Part shown: one piece after another, positions 1 through 63,535 of the stretch
Layout: each line of letters starts with the position of its first letter
How positions within the stretch are numbered: the first letter of the stretch is position 1
Assembly: GCA_012934845.2 (NCBI GenBank)
Contig: WNNJ02002221.1
Location: 1 to 64,000 of the forward strand
DNA from: Pomphorhynchus laevis
Lineage: Eukaryota > Acanthocephala > Palaeacanthocephala > Echinorhynchida > Pomphorhynchidae
Reading direction: 5' to 3'
Length of the DNA stretch: 64,000 bases
The notes under the pieces: generated by a model
Told to the model about the DNA's origin: nothing
The model's database searches: none
What the model saw: the letters and a program-made list of their open reading frames with translations, nothing else
Position numbers and translations under genes: made by a program

Positions 1-58
1 ACACAGGCAACCGAAACGGCCAGTGAGTACTTCATTCTACTGATGAGTGTTGCTTGGA
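1..58 (+). ncRNA. Partial permuted hammerhead-like repeat (family 1)
   Basis: The window opens inside the repeat found as a tandem pair near 16.6-17.05 kb, in the opposite orientation. Seen in order: GGCAAC followed by CGAAAC (7-18), a stem III strand, the I' strand TTCTA, CTGATGAG (40-47), and GTTGC, which complements GCAAC. The copy stops near base 53, before the block with the cleavage triplet, where it joins LINE sequence. It is therefore a truncated copy. Confidence 0.6.
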
Positions 59-9297: not shown

Positions 9298-11733
9298 TTA
9301 ACGTCGTTTTCTTTTACTACCAGTAATCGAGGTTGGCATTTCAATGGATGGATTTTGAAAAGATGTACTTTCAATATCTTGCTGATTATCAGCGGATCGC
9401 TTACGTGTTCTCTGCCCCTGCTCGCTTACTCGTTGAGTGATATCATCATCTGTCCGGCATTCAGATTGGCGTAGCCTTTTCGACACACAAGGTTCATATT
9501 GCTGGTTTTTACTCGGCTCAGAAGTTTGCTCAGTACTACCTTCATCTGCGGCGGCAGCAGTTGGAAAAGCTCGTTTTCGAGCTAAGCGATTTGTCTCCAT
9601 AGCCGTGTTAATCTTTGAAAAATCTTTATTTGGATTTGTGTTGTATGTATAAGAAAACAAAGTACTCGATCGACATACTTGTTTACGCGGTGATAGATAA
9701 ACGGAATAGCGCGGCGACAATTTCAACGGACTATCCATAAGATGACGATCATATCTTCGACCAGGCAATTCAGGCAAATCGTGATCTTTTCCTGATGTAA
9801 CTTTTTCTCTTATGAAATTACAGATCACCGTCTTGTATTTGGTGACAAACACTTTATTATAGAATGAAATTATATCCGAAAATACAGCATTGTCGTTCAT
9901 TAAAACGATCTTACAAACTTGAGATTTTCCACCCATCTTTTTATAATGCTTAGTTATCTTTTGAAACGAAAGCGGTTGCCCGACAGCTTTAGCCATTGCA
10001 TATATTACACACATGATGATCTGATCAATATGTCGATCCTTGAGAAATGTTAAATCACTTTGTAAAATGTACTCGATTAGAAACCAGCATCTTCTGGCCA
10101 CAATTTCCCTTTGCTCAAGTTGTTCACAACACAGTTCATCTAAACGTTTCGCAGCCAGGTAATATATCTTAGACATTATAAGCGTAAGACTGTTTTGATT
10201 GACCTTCGTTGTGCTTTTATTGGCTCCGCCATGTTTAATACGACGGACTTTCTTAGCTGAACTAGAGACAGCATCTGCATTACTATGACCTCTACCACTA
10301 TTGCTAATGTGGCAACGTCGATAACACTCTCGATCATCTAGGTCTTCATCTTCTTTACATACATCAGTGCTAATCGGTATAGTTTGATTGGCAATTCGAT
10401 TCCAGAGTGGACTATCTCTGTTAAATATTTTACATTCGAGCATTGATTCCTCTACGGCTAACAGATGCCTTGCAGCATCACGGCAAAGACCAATGTTCAA
10501 TAGTGCTCTGATTACAGGCTGTATAACACTGTAAGCATAGAATGCTGGCACTGTTGAGCCGACCCAATGTACATCATCGCAGCGTCCTTGCCAATATCCT
10601 ATTAAACGAATACAGCATTCAAACAAGGCTCCTGTAAGTGAAGTTGAAAATAGTAAATGCTCAAGTTCACTGGAATTCGTTAATTCCTGAGAATTTAGTA
10701 ATTGACCTAGTGTAACAATTGTGAGTTTTCGGGCATCGTCATAATCAGCCATGTCACCGTACATTGGACGTAGAGTTTGATCTAACTTAAGCTTCCAATT
10801 GCCACTTACTAAACATGAGTTCAGTTTTTCTTCGGCTTGCGTGTAATTAACGAGAAAACGATTAAGTATAGATTTCGCTGGATTTGTTGACGTTGTAACG
10901 TCTTCTAGGCATGGCTCATCTATGTTTCGTTCATCAAGGTGATCAGCTTTTGATAATGAAATGTCGTAAAGGCGAGACAAAGATAATACATTTTCTTTTA
11001 TGTTATCTAGTAAGGGTAATTGTAAAAATCCTTTCTCATCAAGTTCCTTAATGGCTGGTTCCAGTCCATAAATCAGAAGAGAACGAGCCTCGTTAGAATT
11101 GACTTGAAAACGATCGCATAACATCAAAAGTACATCAACAGTTGAGCTAGATTCAAGCTCTGGATGAATTGCATCTATAAGTCCTGCGGTTAAGGCACTC
11201 TGAAATAGTAGCTCGTGACAAGCCAACATTAAATGAAATCCGTTTACAAGATCCGACGGGTTTGAAAACAGTTGGAAACGTGCCCAGCAAAATAGCAACC
11301 ATGCAAATTCATGAACGATTTCAAAATCTTCATAATTTTGATCAAATACAGCTTCGAATACAGAAGGGAATTTTACAGCCAGAATAATGCCAACTTGATA
11401 GGATAATTCTAATTTAATGATATCATCAGATCCGGATAGATGTCTTCGGCATAGTTCGAAAAATCGATGTGGTCGTAAACCTGATGATTGTAGTAAGCCA
11501 TTTAGCGAAGGTTTTTGTTCGTCAGCGATTTCACATTGTCTTGATTCTAAGTATAAAATACAGGAAAGCCAATGAAGCTGATCTCCTTCCAGTGTGTATC
11601 GTTCACTTAGATCAACATAATCAAGCCATGTTTGTTCTGCTATATCATCGTTAACATTTAACTGGAAGCAAACTGAGCGATATCGACTTTTTAAGCATCT
11701 CAAAGCTTCATCTTCAGCGGCCATAGACGTCAT
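9298..11733 (-). CDS. Retinoblastoma-like pocket protein (p107/p130/Rb family), intronless
   Basis: This is an uninterrupted 811-residue ORF. The N-terminal cyclin-like region (about 30-230) contains HEFAWLLFCWARF and DLVNGFHLMLACHELLF, as in p107/p130. Pocket A (about 285-455) has the LRPMYGD and LFECCIRLIGYW segments. The spacer has a basic cluster, KKVRRIK (about 494-500). Pocket B (about 512-642) has LIMSKIYYLAAKRLDELC and KDRHIDQIIMCVIYAMAKA, nearly the family consensus, then FYNKVFV. The tail has SP sites (SPLKLSPRYSVYLSPRK, about 668-684) expected for CDK phosphorylation, and ends KRKRR. Pocket proteins bind E2F/DP and LxCxE partners in the nucleus and restrain G1/S genes. The start is well set: an in-frame TGA lies two codons upstream and position -3 is A. 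At 811 residues it is shorter than vertebrate p107 (about 1070). The lack of introns is notable, and there is no poly(A) scar to prove a retrocopy. Confidence 0.9.
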   Translation of the reverse strand: MTSMAAEDEALRCLKSRYRSVCFQLNVNDDIAEQTWLDYVDLSERYTLEGDQLHWLSCILYLESRQCEIADEQKPSLNGLLQSSGLRPHRFFELCRRHLSGSDDIIKLELSYQVGIILAVKFPSVFEAVFDQNYEDFEIVHEFAWLLFCWARFQLFSNPSDLVNGFHLMLACHELLFQSALTAGLIDAIHPELESSSTVDVLLMLCDRFQVNSNEARSLLIYGLEPAIKELDEKGFLQLPLLDNIKENVLSLSRLYDISLSKADHLDERNIDEPCLEDVTTSTNPAKSILNRFLVNYTQAEEKLNSCLVSGNWKLKLDQTLRPMYGDMADYDDARKLTIVTLGQLLNSQELTNSSELEHLLFSTSLTGALFECCIRLIGYWQGRCDDVHWVGSTVPAFYAYSVIQPVIRALLNIGLCRDAARHLLAVEESMLECKIFNRDSPLWNRIANQTIPISTDVCKEDEDLDDRECYRRCHISNSGRGHSNADAVSSSAKKVRRIKHGGANKSTTKVNQNSLTLIMSKIYYLAAKRLDELCCEQLEQREIVARRCWFLIEYILQSDLTFLKDRHIDQIIMCVIYAMAKAVGQPLSFQKITKHYKKMGGKSQVCKIVLMNDNAVFSDIISFYNKVFVTKYKTVICNFIREKVTSGKDHDLPELPGRRYDRHLMDSPLKLSPRYSVYLSPRKQVCRSSTLFSYTYNTNPNKDFSKINTAMETNRLARKRAFPTAAAADEGSTEQTSEPSKNQQYEPCVSKRLRQSECRTDDDITQRVSEQGQRTRKRSADNQQDIESTSFQNPSIEMPTSITGSKRKRR

Positions 11734-12990: not shown

Positions 12991-14606
12991 GCTGATTTAA
13001 AGTTATTACTCATTAAACTCTAACTAAGATTGATTATTCTAAAATCCAATGAGGAAAGGGTCCACATATAACCCAGATACCAAAGTAGTATGCAAAATAT
13101 GAAGTGAATCTAATAAAAAGCCTTTGAGAATTTACGCTACATTAATTTTGTACTCATGCTAGTTAAAGCAAAATTCGTGTAATAAGGGGATGTGTACAAG
13201 ATAATTAAAAGTTGCAGTGCTCGCATGAGTAAAAATCGATTACGATAATATTGCATGGATGAATTAAAACCGATTGATCTACTCAAAACATATATCTAGG
13301 CAAAGTCGATTGAACCGACAGTCATGGCAGTTGAATCACCTACGTAATGTTAATTATTAAAAATGCATTTGTTCTGTGAAATTTTACTGATTAATGATTG
13401 ATCGCTAATCAATCAATGACCGTGTCGTTAATCAAGCAACGGGAGTTAGATAATTTTATAAAGATTGAAAAGCAACAGAACAGTGGACATTCAAATAAGC
13501 AGACTCACAAATGTAATGTTTTAAAATATGAACGTTGCACAAGTAGAAGGCATATGTAACAACACACAAATTACCTCGCTGTGTGTGCTCAGATGAGCGC
13601 AGTACAGCTTATTTGTGGGAATAATCAACTAGCAATATAGTTTCTATTTTTCAAAGAAAATAAAAAATATCAAAAATTTAGATTAACAAAACATTTATAA
13701 TTGAGCGTATTACTACAATATAACAAATAAGTAACTTATCACATCGGAAATAATTTGATTAAAAAGAATTTTTGTAATTTTGATTTAAAAAATATTATTA
13801 AAAAAATTCATTGTGCTTCAGAACTATTCATACTGGATGGCACAGATATTACATCGACTACAACATTTACATTTGTGAAAATACAATTTTAATTTACTTT
13901 CCAAAACTAACTGCAATATTTTAGCAGAAAATGGCGTACATTTCATATAACTATGATTAACAAAACATATTCAACGATCACGTCATTTTGATTTATAATT
14001 TGTTTCGTAATTAAAATTTACAGAAAGGAATTTCATTATCAGTAAAAATTCGTAAAAAATAAAAGGGCAGCATTATCAAAGGTGGAAGTTGTACGCCTAT
14101 TGTCTTAGAAATAGAGAATATATCCTTTAGATTTATAAAATGATAAATTAAATGCCTTATATATACAGATTGCAGACATAACCGTCTTCTGTGGTCCATC
14201 TTTATTGGGACTCGATTATTTAGATAAAATGAAATAAATAGTAATGAGATTCTGAAATCTAAATTTATTTAAAACGTTACATTCATAAAATAAAACACTT
14301 ACAATGGATTAAATTGTAATGATTTTGTTTATGTTTTTATTGCTTTTATTGAATTGTATAAATTATGTGGAACTTTACGCGTGTAATGTAACTAAAGAAG
14401 AATGTCATACAGTCGAATAGTTTGAAATAAATTTTAGATTTCAAAATCTTTTTTTTTGTTATAACTATTTATTTTATTTTATCTATATTATATATAATGT
14501 GAACCGTCTGTTGTTATCATTTTTTTTACTAGGATTCTATGTAATAATTTTAGATATTAATTATTTAAACGACAAAGGTTTGTGTTGGTATATATACATT
14601 ATATAT
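12991..14606. other. AT-rich spacer without recognisable genes
   Basis: I find no coding similarity, RNA gene or clear repeat unit in this 1.6 kb. Short frames such as 14,011-14,199 on the minus strand look like chance openings. Confidence 0.5.
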
Positions 14607-15134
14607 AATGAATAGTTGCTAGGTCACACGAGGTGACTTTCGCATTGAAAACCAGCTACAGAATCCTTCCTTCATGATATCCAATTCCATACACCCTGAC
14701 TACTAACGGCCACATTGCCACAGCCGTTTTCGTTTCGCCCGCTTTTTGCCACATGTTGGTAGCCCCGGGCTTATCAGAAGGCTAACTACCAACGCTTCGC
14801 CTTTTGAAATTTGACTTATCCGAGATTCGAGCTGTCGCTCTCCGTACTTGGCTTGCGCTCTTGACTGCTAGGCTACGAATCCAGGATTACCAGATTTCAC
14901 ACAGTATATGAAACCTTCCATCATGACATCCAGAAACTGCATTGTCCGAGATGCTTCTCTTGCATGCTTATTATAGATTTTAGCTTATGAGATCATGAAG
15001 ATCGATTGAAATCGGGACTGGTGATCTTTTGATGGATGCTTATTTATGTAATGAATAGTTGCTAGGTCACACGAGGTGACTTTCGCATTGAAAACTAGCT
15101 ACAGAATCCTTCCTTCATGATATCCAATTCCATA

Positions 15135-15226
15135 CACCCTGACTACTAACGGCCACATTGCCACAGCCGTTTTCGTTTCGCCCGCTTTTTGCCACATGTT
15201 GGTAGCCCCGGGCTCATCAGAAGGCT
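15135..15226 (-). ncRNA. Type I hammerhead-like ribozyme, second intact copy
   Basis: Same motif as at 15,622-15,713 in the inverted arm. The CTGATGAG complement is at 15,213-15,220 and the CGAAAC complement at 15,175-15,180. The outer units are damaged in the catalytic box: CTGATAAG near 14,770-14,777 (minus) and CTAATGAG at 16,071-16,078 (plus). Confidence 0.6.
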
Positions 15227-15621
15227 GACTACCAACTCTTCGCCTTTTGAAATTTGACTTATCCGAGATTCGAGCTGTCGCTCTCCGTACTTGGCTTGCG
15301 CTCTTGACTGCTAGGCTACGAATCCAGGATTACCAGATTTCACACAGTATATGAAACCTTCCATCATGATATCCAGAAACTGCATTGTCCGAGATGCTGC
15401 TCTGGTATGATTATTATAGATTTTATCGTATGAGATCATGAAGATCGATTGAAATCGGGACTGGTGATCCTTTGATGGATGCTTATTTATGTAATGAATA
15501 GTTGCTAGGTCACACGAGGTGACTTTCCGGACTCTCCGTACTTGGCTTGCAAGCCAAGTACGGAGAGTGACAGCTCGAATCTCGGATAAGTCAAATTTCA
15601 AAAGGCGAAGAGTTGGTAGTC

Positions 15622-15713
15622 AGCCTTCTGATGAGCCCGGGGCTACCAACATGTGGCAAAAAGCGGGCGAAACGAAAACGGCTGTGGCAATGTGGCCGTT
15701 AGTAGTCAGGGTG
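15622..15713 (+). ncRNA. Type I hammerhead-like ribozyme, 443-bp family, canonical order
   Basis: Stem I' AGCCTT (15,622-15,627) is followed by CTGATGA (15,628-15,634). Stem II is GCCCG (15,635-15,639) with CGGGC (15,664-15,668). Next comes GAAAC (ending 15,673), then stem III AACGGC (15,677-15,682) with GCCGTT (15,695-15,700). The cleavage triplet GTC is at 15,705-15,707, and stem I is AGGGTG (15,708-15,713), partly wobble-paired. All core boxes are intact here and in the minus-strand copy at 15,135-15,226. Stem III has an internal loop next to the core, which weakens the call. Confidence 0.6.
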
Positions 15714-16610
15714 TATGGAATTGGATATCATTAAGGAAGGATTCTGTAGCTGGTTTTCAATGCGAAAGTCACCTCGTGTGACCTAGCAACTATTCATTAC
15801 ATAAATAAGCATCCATCAAAGGATCACCAGTCCCGATTTCAATCGATCTTCATGATCTCATACGATAAAATCTATAATAATCATACCAGAGCAGCATCTC
15901 GGACAATGCAGTTTCTGGATATCATGATGGAAGGTTTCATATACTGTGTGAAATCTGGTAATCCTGGATTCGTAGCCTAGCAGTCAAGAGCGCAAGCCAA
16001 GTACGGAGAGCGACAGCTCGAATCTCGGATAAGTCAAATTTCAAAAGGCGAAGAGTTGGTAGTCAGCCTTCTAATGAGCCCGGGGCTACCAACATATGGC
16101 AAAAAGCGGGCGAAGCGAAAACGACTGTGGCAATGTGGCCGTTAGTAGTCAGGGTGTATGGAATTGGATATCATGAAGGAAGGATTCTGTAGCTGGTTTT
16201 CAATGCGAAAGTCACCTCGTGTGACCTAGCAACTATTCATTACATAAATAAGCATCCATCAAAGGATCACCAGTCCCGATTTCAATCGATCTTCATGATC
16301 TCATACGATTATATATATGTATATATATAATTTTAAATACGATTTTACAGGCAACAACTACAACTCAACTACAACCCTTTTAAAGGCAACAACTCAAAAA
16401 AGACAGGCGGTTTAACTCAATTACAATATTTACAAAAAGGATCTCATAATGAACGATCCCGTCAACAGCCGGTTTAACGATCATTACCTATATATAATAG
16501 TGCACGGATGTGCTGAGTAAACAACGGTTCAGGATTTCTTTGGAAATACGGCATTTATACAAAATGGTGTTGATTTTTAGACTGGACTTTGATTCACGAC
16601 TTTCGGTCAC

Positions 16611-16700
16611 CATGTTACTTCTAGACGACCAATAAGTACCTGGCAACACTCATCAGTAGAATGAAGTACACACTGGTCGTTTCGGTTGCCTGTGTGACAT
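16611..16700 (-). ncRNA. Permuted hammerhead-like motif, family 1
   Basis: Minus-strand order: II' GGCAAC (16,685-16,690), CGAAAC, III CGACCA (16,674-16,679) plus GTAC, I' TTCTA (16,657-16,661), CTGATGAG (16,649-16,656), II GTTGCC (16,642-16,647), GTAC, III' TGGTCG (16,626-16,631), the GTC triplet (16,624-16,626), I TAGAA (16,619-16,623). All three helices abut the right core boxes, but they interleave. The apical loop of helix III is 26 nt and contains the CTGATGAG strand. Confidence 0.65.
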
Positions 16701-16971
16701 TGTGAATGAAGGCATTTCCGACACTGCTTAATTGTCTGAGGCTTACGCTCTTTACCAGATCGAATTGCTGTGCGGACCATCCTTAAACACTAGGCAGAGG
16801 TTGTTGCTGAATTTTGGCTTCACCGGTTGGATCATTAATGGATACGACAAGTATAATAGTAGTGCACGGGTGTACTGAGTAACAACGGTCCAGGATTTCT
16901 TTCGAAATACGGCATTTATACAAAATGGTGTTGCTTGTTAGACTGGACTTTGATTCGCGACTTTCAATCAA

Positions 16972-17062
16972 CATGTCACTTCTAGACGACCAATGAGTAC
17001 CTGACAATACTCATCAGTAGAATGAAGTACACACTGGTCGTTTCGGTTGCCTGTGTGACATC
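16972..17062 (-). ncRNA. Permuted hammerhead-like motif, family 1, second unit
   Basis: Same layout as in the neighbouring unit, with the CTGATGAG box at 17,010-17,017 and CGAAAC at 17,040-17,045. Its helix II strand reads ATTGTC instead of GTTGCC, which weakens pairing with GGCAAC. Confidence 0.55.
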
Positions 17063-27889: not shown

Positions 27890-28062
27890 TAATACAAAAT
27901 GGTGTTGCTTGTTAGACGGTATTCACGAATTCAGTCGTCATGTCATTTCTAGACGACTAATGAGTACCTGGAAACACTCATCAGTAGAATGAAGTACACA
28001 TTGGTCGTTTCGGTTGCCTGTGTGACATTGTGAATGAAGATGTTTCCGACACATTGCTTAAT
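27890..28062 (-). ncRNA. Permuted hammerhead-like motif, solo family 1 copy
   Basis: A single, partial family 1 unit. The CTGATGAG box is at 27,977-27,984 and CGAAAC at 28,007-28,012 (both as complements). GTC-TAGAA is at the far end near 27,945-27,955. Helix II has one mismatch (GTTTCC against GGCAAC). It is flanked by TA-rich microsatellites. Confidence 0.55.
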
Positions 28063-28184
28063 AATTTTATATACTATATATTATATATAAGATATATTAT
28101 TATTTAAGACATATATAATGTATATATATGATGTATATACGTTAGGGGGTCCAAAAATGCAACTTCGATTTTGACAGTGTCAAA

Positions 28185-28790
28185 TAAATGAATAATTCGG
28201 TTCTATTTCTTAGTCTGATGAGGATATATAGAATGCTGCCTGGTGTTTATGCCTCCTCATGAGGAAAAGTGATCTATTAACGAGTACATCATTTGGTGTC
28301 CCAGGCAGGTGTAACAACAAATTATATTTTATATATTTGTACACTTTAAAGTTTCCCTGTAAAACGCATTTCTATTAAAAAGAATTTAGTGCCTGATGCA
28401 TGGTTAAACCGCAATAAGTACTGCCATGCACAGAGCTTATGCTAAATTCCCTCCGATGATTCAGATTCAAGGGTAGTTCTGTTTTTCAAGCTTTAGACAT
28501 TGTTTAAGCGTTTGTTAAAGTGCCTATGGATGATTATGGAAGTCACGGTACTGATGAGCTACGTTAGAGCGAAACGCATTTAACGTTGTTGAATTTTGTC
28601 ATCACACATAGAATGACTGGGCATACGTAGCGACTTTGAATATTGCGAGAATAATTCGGTTCTATTTCTTTGTCTGATGAGGATATATAGGATGCTGCCT
28701 AGTGTTTACGTCTCATCATGAGAAAACATAGTGATTTATTAACGAGTACACCATTGGATGTTCAAGGGCAGGTGTAACAACAAATTATAT
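28185..28790 (+). repeat. Family 3 ribozyme-like repeat, copy 1
   Basis: AATAATTCGGTTCTATTTCT begins at about 28,191 and 28,650 (period 459). The unit includes TGCCTGATGCATGG, GGCATACGTAGCGAC and a TGATGAG/CTCATCA hairpin. A second copy at 31,715-32,266 lies exactly 3,500 bp downstream at the level of the CTGATGAG box. Confidence 0.75.
28540..28610 (+). ncRNA. Hammerhead-like core in family 3, copy 1
   Basis: CTGATGA (28,551-28,557) is followed by stem II GCU/AGC closing a 7-nt loop, then GAAAC (ending 28,575). A possible GTC triplet lies at about 28,599-28,601. Spacing between CTGATGAG and CGAAAC is that of a normal hammerhead. Stems I and III are not convincing within this copy. The identical core is at 32,051-32,075. 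Confidence 0.5.
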
Positions 28791-28839: not shown

Positions 28840-29460
28840 CCTTCGTTTCATAATTGTAGATGTTGCCAAACACGGGAGTTCGATTACAAGTAGATCAGAC
28901 TTCCTTATCACTCCTAGACGAGCTGATGGTTGCCGGCATCACTCATCAGTAGGGTAAACTACCATCAGTCATTTCGGCTGCATAGTGATATATTAAATAG
29001 GCATTTCCGAGAATTTGCAAACGTGGTAGCATGGGTCTAGCCTCTTTAAACCAACCATGTGCTTTCCGGACTATCCTAATTATATTCGCAGGAATTTTAC
29101 TTGCTGTCGTTGCTTGCTTTCTCACAGGATCCTTTAAAGGATACAATTGTATAATTTTATATCTGATTGTGTTACTGTGCTCCGGGAGCTAATAAGCTTC
29201 CGTTTCATAATTGTAGATGTTGCCAAACACCGGAGTTCGATTACGAGTAGATCAGACTTTATTATCACTCCTAGACGAGCTGATGGTAGCCGGCAGCACT
29301 CATCAGTAGGGTGAACTACCATCAGTCGTTTCGGCTGCCTTGTGATATATTAAATAGGCATTTCCGAGAATTTGCTAACGTGGTAGCATGGGCCTAGCCT
29401 CTTTAAACCAATCATGTGCTTTCCAAACCATCCTAATTTTATTCGGCAGGAATTATATAT
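28840..29460 (-). repeat. Family 2 tandem repeat, period about 357 bp
   Basis: Two units: TATATCTGATTGTG at about 28,801 and 29,158, and the CTCATCAG box at 28,942 and 29,299. The wording around the box parallels family 1 (CTAGACGA, then ACTCATCAGTAG, then TTTCGG.TGC, then GGCATTTCCGA), so the families are distant relatives. A further fragment in the other orientation is at 55.8-55.93 kb. Confidence 0.85.
29265..29345 (-). ncRNA. Permuted hammerhead-like motif, family 2 (best copy)
   Basis: Minus-strand order: II' GGCAGC (29,334-29,339), CGAAAC (complement of 29,328-29,333), III ACGA plus CTGATGGTAG (29,316-29,325), I' CCTA (29,307-29,310), CTGATGAG (29,299-29,306), II GCTGCC (29,292-29,297), III' CTACCATCAG (29,280-29,289) plus TCGT (29,275-29,278), GTC (29,274-29,276), I TAGG (29,270-29,273). 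Helix III has 14 pairs and a 26-nt loop, the same loop length as in family 1. The copy at 28,914-28,985 has GAAAT in place of GAAAC. Confidence 0.7.
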
Positions 29461-29497: not shown

Positions 29498-29775
29498 CAG
29501 ATGACAAAAACTTCTAATTTATTGAAACAACACGTTTCGAAAAATTTCTTTTTAGAAAGAATAAATTATTCGAAACGCGCTGTTTCAATAAATTAGAAGT
29601 TTTTGATTTATGGATTTATTAACTGATATTATAGCGTCTTTAAATCGAATTCCGGAGGCTGTTTATGAATAATTGTATGTTAATTATATATATTTATATA
29701 TAATTGACATTATATACAATTTATATAAACAATTTATATATTATTTAATTACAATTATTCATAAACAGCCTCTAG
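29498..29775. repeat. Two successive inverted repeats
   Basis: CAAAAACTTCTAATTTATTG (about 29,506-29,526) pairs with CAATAAATTAGAAGTTTTTG (about 29,586-29,606), with TTTCGAA-rich sequence in the loop. Next, GGCTGTTTATGAATAATTGT (about 29,657) pairs with its complement near 29,752-29,772 across a TA-rich spacer. Both look like foldback elements. Confidence 0.65.
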
Positions 29776-31715: not shown

Positions 31716-32266
31716 GCGACTTTGAATATTGCGCGAATAATTTCATTCTATTTCTTTCGATAACATAGTGATTTATTTACGAGTACACCATTGGGTGTCC
31801 CAGGGCAGGTGTAACAACAAATTATATTTTATATATTTTGTACACTTTAAAGTATACCGTTAAACAGCATTTCTATTAAAAAGAATTTAGTGCCTGATGC
31901 ATGGTTAAACCGCAATACGTACTGCCATGCACAGAGCTTATGCTAAATTCCCTCAGATGATTCAGATTCAGGGTAGTTCTGTTTTTCAAGCTTTAGACAT
32001 TGTTTAAGCGTTTGTTAAAGTGCCTATTGATGATTATGGAAGACACGGTACTGATGAGCTACGTTAGAGCGAAACGCATTTAACGTTGTTGAATTTTGTC
32101 ATCACACATAGAATGACTGGGCATACGTAGCGACTTTGAATATTGCGAGAATAATTCGGTTCTATTTCTTTGTCTGATGAGGATATATAGGATGCTGCCT
32201 AGTGTTTACGTCTCATCATGAGAAAACATAGTGATTTATTAACGAGTACACCATTGGATGTTCAAA
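31715..32266 (+). repeat. Family 3 ribozyme-like repeat, copy 2
   Basis: It parallels 28,191-28,740, with a shorter first unit that lacks the TGATGAGGATATATAG hairpin segment (period 413). The ribozyme-like core CTGATGAG-CTACGTTAGAG-CGAAAC is unchanged at 32,051-32,075. It ends at ATTGGATGTTCAA, the same words as copy 1 at 28,760. Confidence 0.75.
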
Positions 32267-32269
32267 ACT

Positions 32270-33410
32270 TGTTTATTTTCAGAAATTTACTTTAAAAGAC
32301 GCAATTAATTTATCTAAAATTTTGCATCAATTTTACAGAATGATCCACGTAATCAGTGATCAACTGAACACAAAATGCTTGTTGGCACTAACATTATGAG
32401 TTTAATTTAAGTAGATGTTATCGATTAAATTCGGCTACGCCTAGCGGTCTTCAAGACACTTGCCGATAAAACATTAATTGATAATGAATCCCAAAGATCA
32501 GTGATAACTAAAATCAGGTTTCGGTATTCCTTTTAAAATACAGCGGCGTATTAATATAGTAGATGTGTATTAACAAAAGACGTTTGTTAATAAATGCGTC
32601 AATATTGAGTGTTAATGCACTTAAGAAAGCTTATTCAAATGTTAAATAATCAAAACTACAAAATTGTTCAATAGTTATACATTATTTTACATATAAGTAA
32701 AACAATGCATTAAGTTTTGAATGAGCTAAATGAATTCAAACAAAAATATTGCATAACCACCTCATAATGTTTATAAACGTAAAAGCTTTAAGAATAATAA
32801 GCTTTAAAAGCTAAGGGTATAACAATTAATTTTGAAATACAGTTGTATCCATAATCAATAAGAAACGTTGAAAAACGCTTATGCAAAAAAATTAAGAGGG
32901 TTTCTTTGTCAAACGAATATATTCTATAAAATGATATCAAAATTTGAGAATATACATAAGATTATATAATCATAAGGTTATAGAATTATGATTAAGATTA
33001 TTTTGAAGATAAGGAAAGTATGTCACATGTAAAATAATCTTAAAAGCTTTTCACGATTTTATAATTTTAAATTAAAATTTTTACTGTGCCAAGAAAATAA
33101 ATCCATCCTTCCATAATTGTTATCATCAATTCTGGAAATTATTTTCAATTTAAAAATGTATTGACAACAATCAATGAGTAAATATTTCTCATGTGCACAT
33201 GATTCTGCGGCAAAATAACAGCAAAGGAGAATTTAAAACTATAAAAAATTGAAATATATTTAATAAATATCTTTCATTAAAATTTAATAATTAATTAAAA
33301 AAATAATTAATAAATTTCAATTTAAAAAATGATTACTAAAATTTACTTATTAATAGTATTTCAATCATTTCAAAGTTTTACATTTTCCTCTATTATAATT
33401 ATCTTGTGGT
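32270..33410. other. AT-rich spacer without recognisable genes
   Basis: Nothing was recognised. Confidence 0.4.
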
Positions 33411-34224: not shown

Positions 34225-34432
34225 TTTAAATAGTTGATAATGATTCATTATTGATAAATAATTATTGGAGCTGGATCAAAGAAAATAGGAAATTATTTTT
34301 GATATTTCGCTAACTTCTGTTAGTATCTTCTAAAAATTACCTAATTTTAGTAATTTTTAGAAGATGCTAACAGTAGTTAGCGAAATATCAAAAATAATTT
34401 CCTATTTTCTTTGATCCAGCTCCAATAATTAT
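34225..34432. repeat. Foldback element with arms of about 90 bp
   Basis: AATAATTATTGGAGCTGGATC (about 34,257) through TTAGTATCTTCTAAAAATTAC is followed by its near-perfect reverse complement, ending GATCCAGCTCCAATAATTATT (about 34,432). It has the same family wording as 22.24-22.69 kb. No coding capacity. It resembles a MITE or foldback transposon. Confidence 0.8.
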
Positions 34433-55789: not shown

Positions 55790-55935
55790 TTCAGACGAGC
55801 TGAATTACACAGCTCGTCTAGGAGTGATAAGGAAGTCTGCTCTGCATGTAATCGAACTCCGGTTTTTGGCAACATTTACAATTATGAAACTGAAGCTTAT
55901 TAGCTCCCGAATCACAGTTTAACACATTATGCGAT
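55790..55935 (+). repeat. Family 2 ribozyme-repeat fragment
   Basis: CAGCTCGTCTAGGAGTGATA is the III'-GTC-I block of family 2, followed by its downstream words (GGAAGTCTGCTC, ATCGAACTCCGG, GCAACATTTACAATTATGAA). The CGAAAC and CTGATGAG blocks are missing. A small hairpin, ACGAGCTG/CAGCTCGT, has formed at the break. Confidence 0.65.
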
Positions 55936-56819
55936 TAAATTATATATAATATCAATTACTAAATATATACATTACTTCGACTACACTTATAAAATTCTAG
56001 AGGAAGTTACGCCAGCATTTGATCTTCGTTATGAACTTTTTAACAAATCGAGAATCACCAGCATGTGTAATCCGTTATGCCTAATATTAAGATGTACACT
56101 AAGTTGAATTTGATAGTCGTTAATTTGACTAATCAAATGTCCAACGAAATCTAATATTTTTATTAACGAAATCTAATATTTTTATTTATATAGGGATAAA
56201 TACTCATATCTGTTTTTCCCGATAATAAAAATCTTTGTGTATAAAAATACACTATTTAATATCTTTTTTATATTTGGCTCTTTCCCATGTACGTTAAACG
56301 CCTATTTTTGGACCTTACATATCAGAGTGAACTTTTGAGACAGCCATGATGATTTGTCGTTTATGCTTGCGTTCGTAATTAAATTTTTTATCCCTTTAAA
56401 GAACTTGTAAACTAATGCTGCTTTGATAAGTTTTGACTTCAAATACTGTTAGCCAATGCCTTAGGATTTCACTGATTATAAAAAGATGTTTTTAAAACAT
56501 TTATTTATTAACGCAGAAACACGTTAATTAACATGGATATTTGGGTTATATTAATGGTAAATAGAAACTGTTGATTTAAAAAATATATACTGTCTTTTAT
56601 TTATTTTGACTATTAAGAAATAGGATATTCAAGGCATTATAATCATTTTGCATGACCATTTAATTACAGCTAAGTATTAGTAGCTTACCCTTTCAAATTT
56701 CTATAAACTATACCTAATCTGTATTGAATGACACATAATCATATATAATATACTTGCCTATATATGCATATGATAGCCGATCGGATCATTTCAAGTATTT
56801 GACGGACATCTGAAGGCAA

Positions 56820-63058: not shown

Positions 63059-63535
63059 GGCGAGGAAACAGGAATATTTATTTGATTATAAAAATCCAAT
63101 ATTTCGACGGCACTACGGCACGCCATCTTCAGTGTTGTATGTTATTTATCTCAAACTTGTTTAACCTTAAAAAAGTTTGAGATAAATAACATACAACCCT
63201 GAAGATGACGTGCCGTAGTGCCGTCGAAATATGCTGCTCTTCGTCTGATTCTTGTGTGTCACTAGTTTCCATTCCTAAGTCACTGTCAAATTCGATTAAT
63301 TTTCCCGAACAGTTTTTTGAAATTGATTCATTTTCACTAATATGCGGTTCTACTACATAACGAATATCGTTAAAATGATATTCGCTATGTGGTAGCGAAT
63401 ATCGTCATAGCGAATATCTCAAACTTTAAAAAAGTTTGAGATAAATAACATACAACCCTGAAGATGGCGTGCCGTAGTGCCGTCGAAATATTGGATTTTT
63501 CTAATCAAATAAATATTCCTGTTTCCTCGCCTTCT
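63059..63535. repeat. Inverted repeats plus a second copy of the gypsy 3' region
   Basis: CGACGGCACTACGGCACGCC..CATCTTCAG..GTTGTATGTTATTTATCTCA (about 63,110-63,160) is followed by its reverse complement (63,175-63,230), and again at 63,425-63,490. Between, 63,235-63,375 repeats the integrase tail bases of 61,737-61,880. The flank CGAGGAAACAGGAATATTTA (63,061) pairs with 63,513-63,533. This scrambled block replaced the RT region. Confidence 0.7.

Follow-up and report, generated by a model that had tools for sequence, protein, structure and literature searches.

Retrozyme-like repeats of Pomphorhynchus laevis probably carry hammerhead ribozymes in the non-circularly permuted block order GCS

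Results

Features of the locus

The window, that is the whole 64,000-nucleotide stretch of Pomphorhynchus laevis DNA that was analysed, contains on its minus strand (9298-11733) an 811-aa open frame that belongs to the retinoblastoma family, has its RB_A and RB_B domains in one stretch and is 24-35% identical to the listed animal relatives. It also encodes a piece of reverse transcriptase that has no Pfam match and is presumably Penelope-like. Long inverted repeats lie at 29505-29610, 29660-29775, 34295-34395 and 63101-63230 and are perhaps small palindromic transposons; Rfam gives sub-threshold miRNA matches at 29518-29593, 34295-34395 and 63101-63230. Besides these features, the window holds tandem repeats with the boxes of the hammerhead ribozyme, hereafter block C (CUGANGA), block G (GAAA) and block S (GUC, at the predicted cleavage site).

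An earlier note on this DNA had described these boxes in the order GAAA, CUGAUGA, GUC, each beside the correct helix strands, in two families with a 26-nt loop in the helix III hairpin and tandem units of about 357-361 nt. All the boxes, helices and coordinates hold, the loop is indeed 26 nt in both families, and the spacings measured are 361 nt in f1 (16656 to 17017) and 357 nt in f2 (28949 to 29306). The best copy in the window belongs to f2 (29348-29262, minus strand; Table 1) and reads IV ATATCAC, AA, II GGCAGC, CGAA, III ACGACTGATGGTAG, TTCA, I (C)CCTA in its 5' half and CTGATGAG, T, II GCTGCC, GG, III CTACCATCAG-C-TCGT, C, I TAGGA, IV GTGATAA in its 3' half. Judged by its sequence, the motif is a hammerhead core with the block order G-C-S, a non-circular permutation (type GCS); hammerhead types I, II and III were rejected as descriptions of it, their cyclic order being C-G-S. 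The core, namely CUGANGA, GAAA and NUH with the A15.1-U16.1 pair, is invariant except at N7 in 22/22 chosen copies and likewise in intact copies of f6 and f9, while f8 has GUA and decayed copies with core changes exist. Position 7 is U, C or A across families, and the same position is written n in the CUGAnGA of PMC10085705. Helices I, II and III adjoin the correct boxes, and a further helix IV (ATGTCAC/GTGACAT in f1, TATCAC/GTGATA in f2) encloses the motif.

Table 1. Coordinates of the best type-GCS motif and of the other motif copies in the window
Feature	Position	Strand	Evidence or remark
Intact type-GCS motif, family f2, best window copy	29262..29348	-	All helices pair; recovered by any-order scan
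Helix IV 5' strand ATATCAC	29342..29348	-	Partner 29262-29268; column 3-87 A-U in 12/22, G-C in 10/22
Helix II 5' strand GGCAGC	29334..29339	-	Partner 29292-29297; both sides change in 4/6 pairs, 22 copies
Block G: CGAA + A15.1 (first residue of helix III)	29329..29333	-	GAAA invariant in 22/22 aligned
Helix III 5' strand ACGACTGATGGTAG	29316..29329	-	Alignment, covariation, predicted folds
TTCA linker, far end of helix III	29312..29315	-	Near-constant in aligned f1, f2, f4, f5
Helix I 5' strand CCTA	29307..29310	-	Partner 29270-29273; alignment, covariation
Block C: CTGATGA	29300..29306	-	Variation at position 7 alone (T or C) in 22 aligned copies
Helix II 3' strand GCTGCC	29292..29297	-	Alignment, covariation
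Helix III 3' strand CTACCATCAG, bulged C at 29279 (proposed hinge), TCGT	29275..29289	-	Alignment, predicted folds
Block S: GTC; predicted cleavage between 29274 and 29273	29274..29276	-	Hammerhead analogy
Helix I 3' strand TAGG	29270..29273	-	Alignment, covariation
Helix IV 3' strand GTGATAA	29262..29268	-	Alignment, covariation
Second f2 copy, tandem, 357 nt away, mismatches	28905..28991	-	Alignment
f1 copy, helices I and II intact	16612..16700	-	Alignment, core scan
f1 copy, tandem, 361 nt away, helix II mismatches	16973..17061	-	Alignment
Lone f1 copy, helix II mismatch	27940..28028	-	Alignment
Cut-off f1 copy at window start (5' part up to helix II only)	1..53	+	
5'-truncated f2 fragment, begins inside helix III, runs into TATATA tract	55810..55948	+	

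The motif had been ascribed to all the copies listed in the window; their boxes are present, but not every copy is intact. Helix II is perfect at 16656 and 29306 and mismatched at 17017 (ATTGTC), 27984 (GTTTCC) and 28949 (GATGCC), and the copy at the window start has no 3' half beyond CTGATGAGTGTTGC. Two further repeats carry parts of the motif. The first, at 14602-15720, is a 443-bp tandem repeat that also has an inverted copy; in it, CTGATGAGCCCG ... CGGGCGAAAC lies inside and beside a GTTGGTAG/CTACCAAC hairpin. It offers block C, block G and a helix II that matches them, and no fitting block S was found. The second (28160-28770 and 31740-32320) resembles a stretch of locus L024, contains CTGATGAGCTACGTTAGAGCGAAACGC and has CTGATGAG at 28215, 28551, 28674, 32051 and 32174; no complete hammerhead could be fitted to it in any order. 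At these sites and at the other CTGATGAG sites 15213 and 15628, no core was found in the window by hand or by scan.

Controls for chance and abundance in the genome

Within the window, CTGATGAG occurs 13 times against 1.14 expected (13 was reached in 0/100 shuffles), and the pattern CGAAACGN{11,13}TTCAN{4,6}CTGANGA matches 5 times against 0.00 expected. CGAAAC is less striking, with 36 occurrences against 23.8 expected (36 was reached in 1/100 shuffles); as this box is common in itself, hammerhead boxes might have been read into an A+T-rich repeat by chance or as an artefact. We scanned for complete cores in all six block orders, with CUGANGA, GAAA or GAAN, the A15.1-U16.1 pair (a swap being allowed in the relaxed version) and helices I-III adjoining the boxes. 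The input was the window with 20 regions (L009-L028) picked for holding an exact 15-mer. The strict scan gave 29 GCS, 1 SCG and 1 CGS matches, and none in 10 shuffles. The relaxed scan gave 37 GCS, 2 CGS, 1 GSC and 1 SCG; six shuffles returned 0 GCS, whereas CSG, CGS and SGC each averaged 0.17 per shuffle. The shuffles of both scans moved two-base blocks and so kept composition and dinucleotides only roughly. Five altered boxes yielded 6 matches in all, with 0 GCS. The GSC match in the window (17864, minus-strand coordinates) has long loops and was taken as chance. With GCS absent from shuffles and altered-box controls and several families using other stems, we find it scarcely credible that the motif is an accident.

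The families of the window belong to a genome-wide set. A search of 249,390,268 bases in 3,242 contigs found the 15-base piece CTGATGAGTGNTGCC in 1928 + 1884 = 3,812 exact matches, and the control, the same piece read backwards, in 0. An open pattern with box position 7 other than T matched 66 + 73 = 139 times in the genome against 45 + 41 = 86 in the control, a modest surplus in which clear GCS copies are mixed with many chance places. Over L009-L099 (91 loci, 237 kb, partly overlapping) the relaxed scan returned 141 GCS and 4 other matches; some regions of L029-L099 overlap, so that certain copies are counted twice, and since L009-L028 were picked by the 15-mer and later loci by motif similarity, such counts are uninformative on density in the genome. 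Letter for letter, the motif sequence of a family (67-75 nt) is found in 1 of the fetched loci for f1, 4 for f2, 16 for f4, 4 for f5, 13 for f6 and 1 for f9. Other DNA, viral and prokaryotic, was put through the same relaxed scan: 205 loci totalling 1.58 Mb, selected with an anchor pattern (87 stretches in one collection, at least 118 in the other). Among the matches listed there were 11 hits (3 CGS, 3 SGC, 2 GCS, 2 SCG and 1 CSG), the GCS blocks being 79-130 nt apart, and no convincing GCS core was found among these anchor-pattern matches. Rfam gave no match over any GCS copy in the window, L016, L026, L029, L043, L049 or L060, its models assuming other orders; in the window nothing reached the gathering score, and sub-threshold miRNA, sRNA and snoRNA matches lie off the motif.

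Families and covariation

On sequence, seven intact families in three groups differ in their stems and share one design (Table 2). They are not independent within group A, as these families share some flanking similarity: outside the motif, every group A pair except f4-f5 scores above all 30 shuffles. The flanks of f6 exceed the shuffles with f5 only, by a small margin (49, highest shuffle 43).

Table 2. Families of the type-GCS motif and their stems
Family	Group	Helix II	Helix I	Other features
f1	A	GGCAAC/GTTGCC	TTCTA/TAGAA	
f2	A	GGCAGC/GCTGCC	CCTA/TAGG	
f3	A	As f1	As f1	16-nt insert in III 3' strand, forming with its neighbours a hairpin CAYTTC-6 nt-GAAGTG
f4	A	GGCAGCC/GGCTGCC	TCTTA/TAGGA	
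f5	A	AGCAGTC/GACTGCT	TCCGA/TCGGA	
f6	B	GGGTC/GACCC	CAGCAG/CTGCTG	III ACGT/GCGT, 10 x 10 nt loop, GTCTGGGT/ACCCAGAC
f7, f8	B			One mismatch each in I or II
f9	C	GGGAC/GTCCC	GTCCA/TGGAC	IV GCATGCT/AGCATGC; III ACAAC/GTTGT, 6 x 3 nt loop, ACAGAG/CTCTGT

BLAST gave 78 places, 67 of which passed the template score (11 were dropped), and an alignment (A1) was made of 22 hand-picked, mostly intact copies (6 f1, 6 f2, 4 f4 and 6 f5); f3, with its inserted hairpin, and f6, f7, f8 and f9 were omitted because their helix III is not alignable column by column. The covariation score was 0.411 against 0.188 when shuffled, a value reached in 0/500 shuffles, and slid versions scored at most 0.116. Over helices I-IV, 94.2% of 572 cells were paired (82.7% in shuffles) and 77 cells had both sides changed (26.7 in shuffles), both reached in 0/500. 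Two of the five measures do not stand out, namely the number of pairs with double-sided change (12, shuffles 10.4, with 48/500 reaching it) and that of further pair types (25, shuffles 27.1, with 479/500 reaching it). Double-sided changes fall on 2/7 pairs of helix IV, 4/6 of II, 1/4 of proximal III, 3/4 of distal III and 2/5 of I, numbers that stand for a handful of independent events since related copies share changes, and the shuffle control ignores relatedness. Covariation had been proposed for helices I and II between two families; each of the helices I-III shows double-sided pair changes in the 22 copies chosen from four families, and the outer helix IV covaries as well. Moreover, groups B and C, outside the A1 count, repeat the design with other stems.

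These changes bear on the possibility that the repeats are structured satellites or retroelement hairpins, with III and IV kept for binding or for the priming of reverse transcription and the boxes left as relics lacking ribozyme activity. Helices III and IV do form the core of the predicted minimum-energy fold in six of the six families folded (f1-f6), and the ribozyme activity is a prediction. A nested single fold that would account better for the conserved boxes, as contemplated in the earlier note, was also sought, and the predictions gave this same hairpin of III plus IV, with the complementarity of I and II unused. However, such a hairpin explains neither the compensatory changes that keep I and II complementary nor the three sets of stems around the same CUGANGA, GAAA and GUH, in which position 7 alone is free in intact copies, and we consider it improbable. 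In the predicted folds of f1, f4 and f5, the UUCA linker and its neighbours pair with the end of CUGANGA or just after it, inside the loop of III; according to these models, this pairing could mask the box while the ribozyme is unfolded.

Folding within one copy or between copies

In a type-GCS ribozyme, helix III would join the GAAA and GUC blocks. CUGANGA, in the loop of III, would reach back to the base, building helix I with the strand that follows GUC and helix II with the one that precedes GAAA. Since block C is placed within that loop, each of the three helices crosses the other two. The outer ends of stems I and II would be held together by helix IV on one side and by distal III on the other; both covary and, as far as sequence can tell, fit the role of the stem I-II contact in other hammerheads.

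The earlier note had held that one copy cannot fold because its helices cross. This is not established: natural hammerheads of the crossing types SGC and CSG cleave according to the text of PMC10085705, and a coarse model permits a single-copy fold if helix III bends at a bulge or internal loop. Most intact families have an interruption of helix III at 4-7 pairs from the core, so that III can bend back and a single copy can probably fold. Such a hinge is present in 6/7 intact families, all but f1, as a bulge (f2, f4, f5) or internal loop (f6, f9) 4-5 pairs from the core or as a hairpin at about 7 pairs (f3).

The model treats helices as rigid A-form, leaves out electrostatics and assumes the place of helix I. 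With zero open pairs, a straight III of 14-15 pairs fails for f1, f2, f4 and f5, its far end being too distant from stem II, and with helix I included it fits at 0/8 azimuths for f1, f2 and f5 in both settings. Opening pairs at the bulge position frees the fold, 1-3 pairs being enough for most azimuths and up to 4 for all. In the loose setting, 6/8 azimuths are reached with one open pair (f2, f5) or two (f1); the strict setting takes two open pairs for f2 (6/8) and f5 (5/8) and three for f1 (5/8). For f9, 7/8 and 5/8 azimuths are feasible with no pair opened, and f6 fits poorly (3/8 loose, 0/8 strict) because its stems join without linkers. With electrostatics missing and helix I assumed, what the model can show is that a single-copy fold stays possible; we give that fold about an even chance.

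The dimer-dependent ribozyme proposed in the earlier note would keep III straight, and its loop would lend CUGANGA to the base of the unit that follows, or of another RNA, and vice versa. That the ribozyme depends on a dimer was not established, a single-copy fold being feasible in the coarse model; a dimer as such is compatible with our results. Its dependence is a real possibility, albeit one that we would not favour. With III straight, the model allows f1, f2 and f5 no single-copy fold, the units lie in tandem, and between units all helices are kept. The f1 sequence folds into a 15-pair helix III, and III (predicted at -19.0 to -24.3 kcal/mol in f1, f2, f4 and f5) is far more stable than I (-1.3 to -7.7) plus II (-7.1 to -13.5), which also favours the dimer; so stable a hairpin could outcompete the ribozyme fold. 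Amphibian hammerheads are described as efficient in dimeric form and weak when they stand as a single motif (PMC7229834). Nevertheless, with a few hinge pairs opened, f1, f2 and f5 can fold as single copies in the model, f9 needs none, the hinge recurs in nearly all intact families, and one GCS RNA cleaved in the assay of Eckert et al., whose text, in the part available, describes no dimer test (PMC10085705). If the ribozyme were dimer-dependent, monomer circles would be stable and multimers alone would cut. A more specific and rather doubtful version is a domain-swapped, dimer-locked hammerhead, in which neighbouring III hairpins exchange their CUGANGA loops, so that concatemers would cut and one-unit circles would not cut themselves; the permuted order would then be a built-in switch protecting the circular RNA of a retroelement.

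Tandem units could also pair in an ordinary way, as a hammerhead of type I or II order formed across two neighbours with one III opened and no helices crossing: C1, G2 and S2 follow each other in type I order, and G1, S1 and C2 in type II order. Covariation cannot distinguish this arrangement from the other folds, but it must open a very stable hairpin and pair across most of a unit, and we judge its chances slim.

Repeat units and insertion pattern

The tandem period is 351-381 nt in f1-f3 and mostly 254-258 nt in f9; among the best 40 genome candidates it is 354 nt in f4, 390-394 nt in f5 and 396-398 nt in f6. Six sample units measure 351-398 nt and have 41-44% G+C, within the range used to recognise retrozymes (a hammerhead in a unit of about 150-450 nt, with less than 50% G+C). 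A type I hammerhead, as expected of animal retrozymes, is not what these units carry, their order being GCS; type I repeats form a separate family here. Canonical type I hammerheads occur in the same genome in tandem repeats of about 296 nt, and 62 of the 65 listed exceed the Rfam cut-off. Minimal type I hammerheads of this genome include that of L060 (RF00163 at 38-42 bits, period about 296 nt) and those in L026 (minus strand, 6786 and 7136) and L020 (minus strand, 4136; script coordinates). At about 130-350 of L089 (C2085:46.3-46.5 kb) a 24-nt tandem array of CTGAAGAGTCCCGTAAGGACGAAA repeats blocks C and G with the helix II of type I and ends in GAAACACGTGTCTAGC like the type I motif. Copies of f6 and f9 (L029-L040, L092-L097), among the best 40 candidates, often form inverted head-to-head pairs.

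Of the 30 listed 3' sides of f1-f3 type, 19 have TATATA within 200 nt, and none of the six sample units contains this word. Direct joins were seen by eye in 17/30, the remainder continuing into another unit or ending otherwise, and join positions recur in the f1-f3 unit at 120-122 (six), 58-64 (five) and 130 (two). Among 3' ends of f6 judged by eye, 4/6 (L062, L063, L065, L066) exit within AAGTTAAATTAAA or directly behind it, about 95-110 nt past the predicted cleavage site, and 2/6 (L064, L068) at 62-64; L067 continues into another unit. A pile-up of 5' ends at the predicted cleavage site, sought as a footprint of cleavage, is absent: 2 of 46 block starts lie within 2 nt of it and the starts are scattered, the count using 46/70 blocks, once blocks shorter than 60 nt and those that begin in the f2b query had been set aside. 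Thus 3' ends recur at TA- or AT-rich sites and 5' ends are variable, a combination that would fit target-primed reverse transcription.

Discussion

The P. laevis repeats are best read as retrozyme-like elements carrying type-GCS hammerheads, a reading that we consider probable on the evidence of their sequences. By cleaving after GUC, the ribozymes would release unit-length RNAs from multimeric transcripts, and these RNAs would be circularised and then reverse transcribed. Multimers would fit a reading round such a circle, and tandem units of about 250-400 nt look retrotransposed.

Eckert et al. 2023 defined the orders SGC, CSG and GCS as non-circular permutations and reported that SGC and CSG RNAs cleave in vitro (PMC10085705). 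Six block orders are possible; according to the text of that study, five have natural support (CSG from two sequences), and GCS was represented by one unsupported sequence, which cleaved at 0.014 per min and was without covariation. Its stem III was proposed to bring stems I and II together (PMC10085705). A search of the open-access literature, subscription papers and preprints being outside its scope, found no other work on type-GCS, non-circularly permuted or permuted retrozyme ribozymes. The non-circular permutation itself is thus already published; what is new is the GCS order in an animal genome, in many copies that covary. Many covarying genomic families would complete the set of six block orders and would bring non-circular permutations into an animal genome and into apparently mobile elements. 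Moreover, they would be natural material for testing ribozymes alone and in pairs, and the repeats could demonstrate real use of the GCS arrangement by living genomes.

Among known systems, the type I repeats of P. laevis itself (RF00163, about 296 nt) share the genome and the kind of tandem unit, but have a nested three-way junction and match Rfam, whereas the scanned GCS copies do not. Animal retrozymes, as described by Cervera and de la Pena 2020, have the type I order C-G-S, unlike the GCS of P. laevis, and their circles and cleavage were measured (PMC7229834), whereas the P. laevis elements are known as sequence. The type SGC and CSG hammerheads are also non-circular permutations with a helix bridging stems I and II; they differ in their orders and, by the account given, come from metatranscriptomes (SGC) or metagenomes (CSG) and from no known organism's genome, and their self-cleavage was demonstrated, that of P. 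laevis being predicted (PMC10085705). To conclude, a close counterpart in design, compared by description, is GCS-1, which has the same G-C-S order with crossing helices I to III; as reported, it is one bacterial sequence (Caballeronia peredens) with covariation absent and an unclear function (PMC10085705). In contrast, P. laevis, an animal, has thousands of copies arranged in tandem in its genome, several covarying families and an added helix IV, and its GCS arrangement is far better supported than that earlier single candidate.
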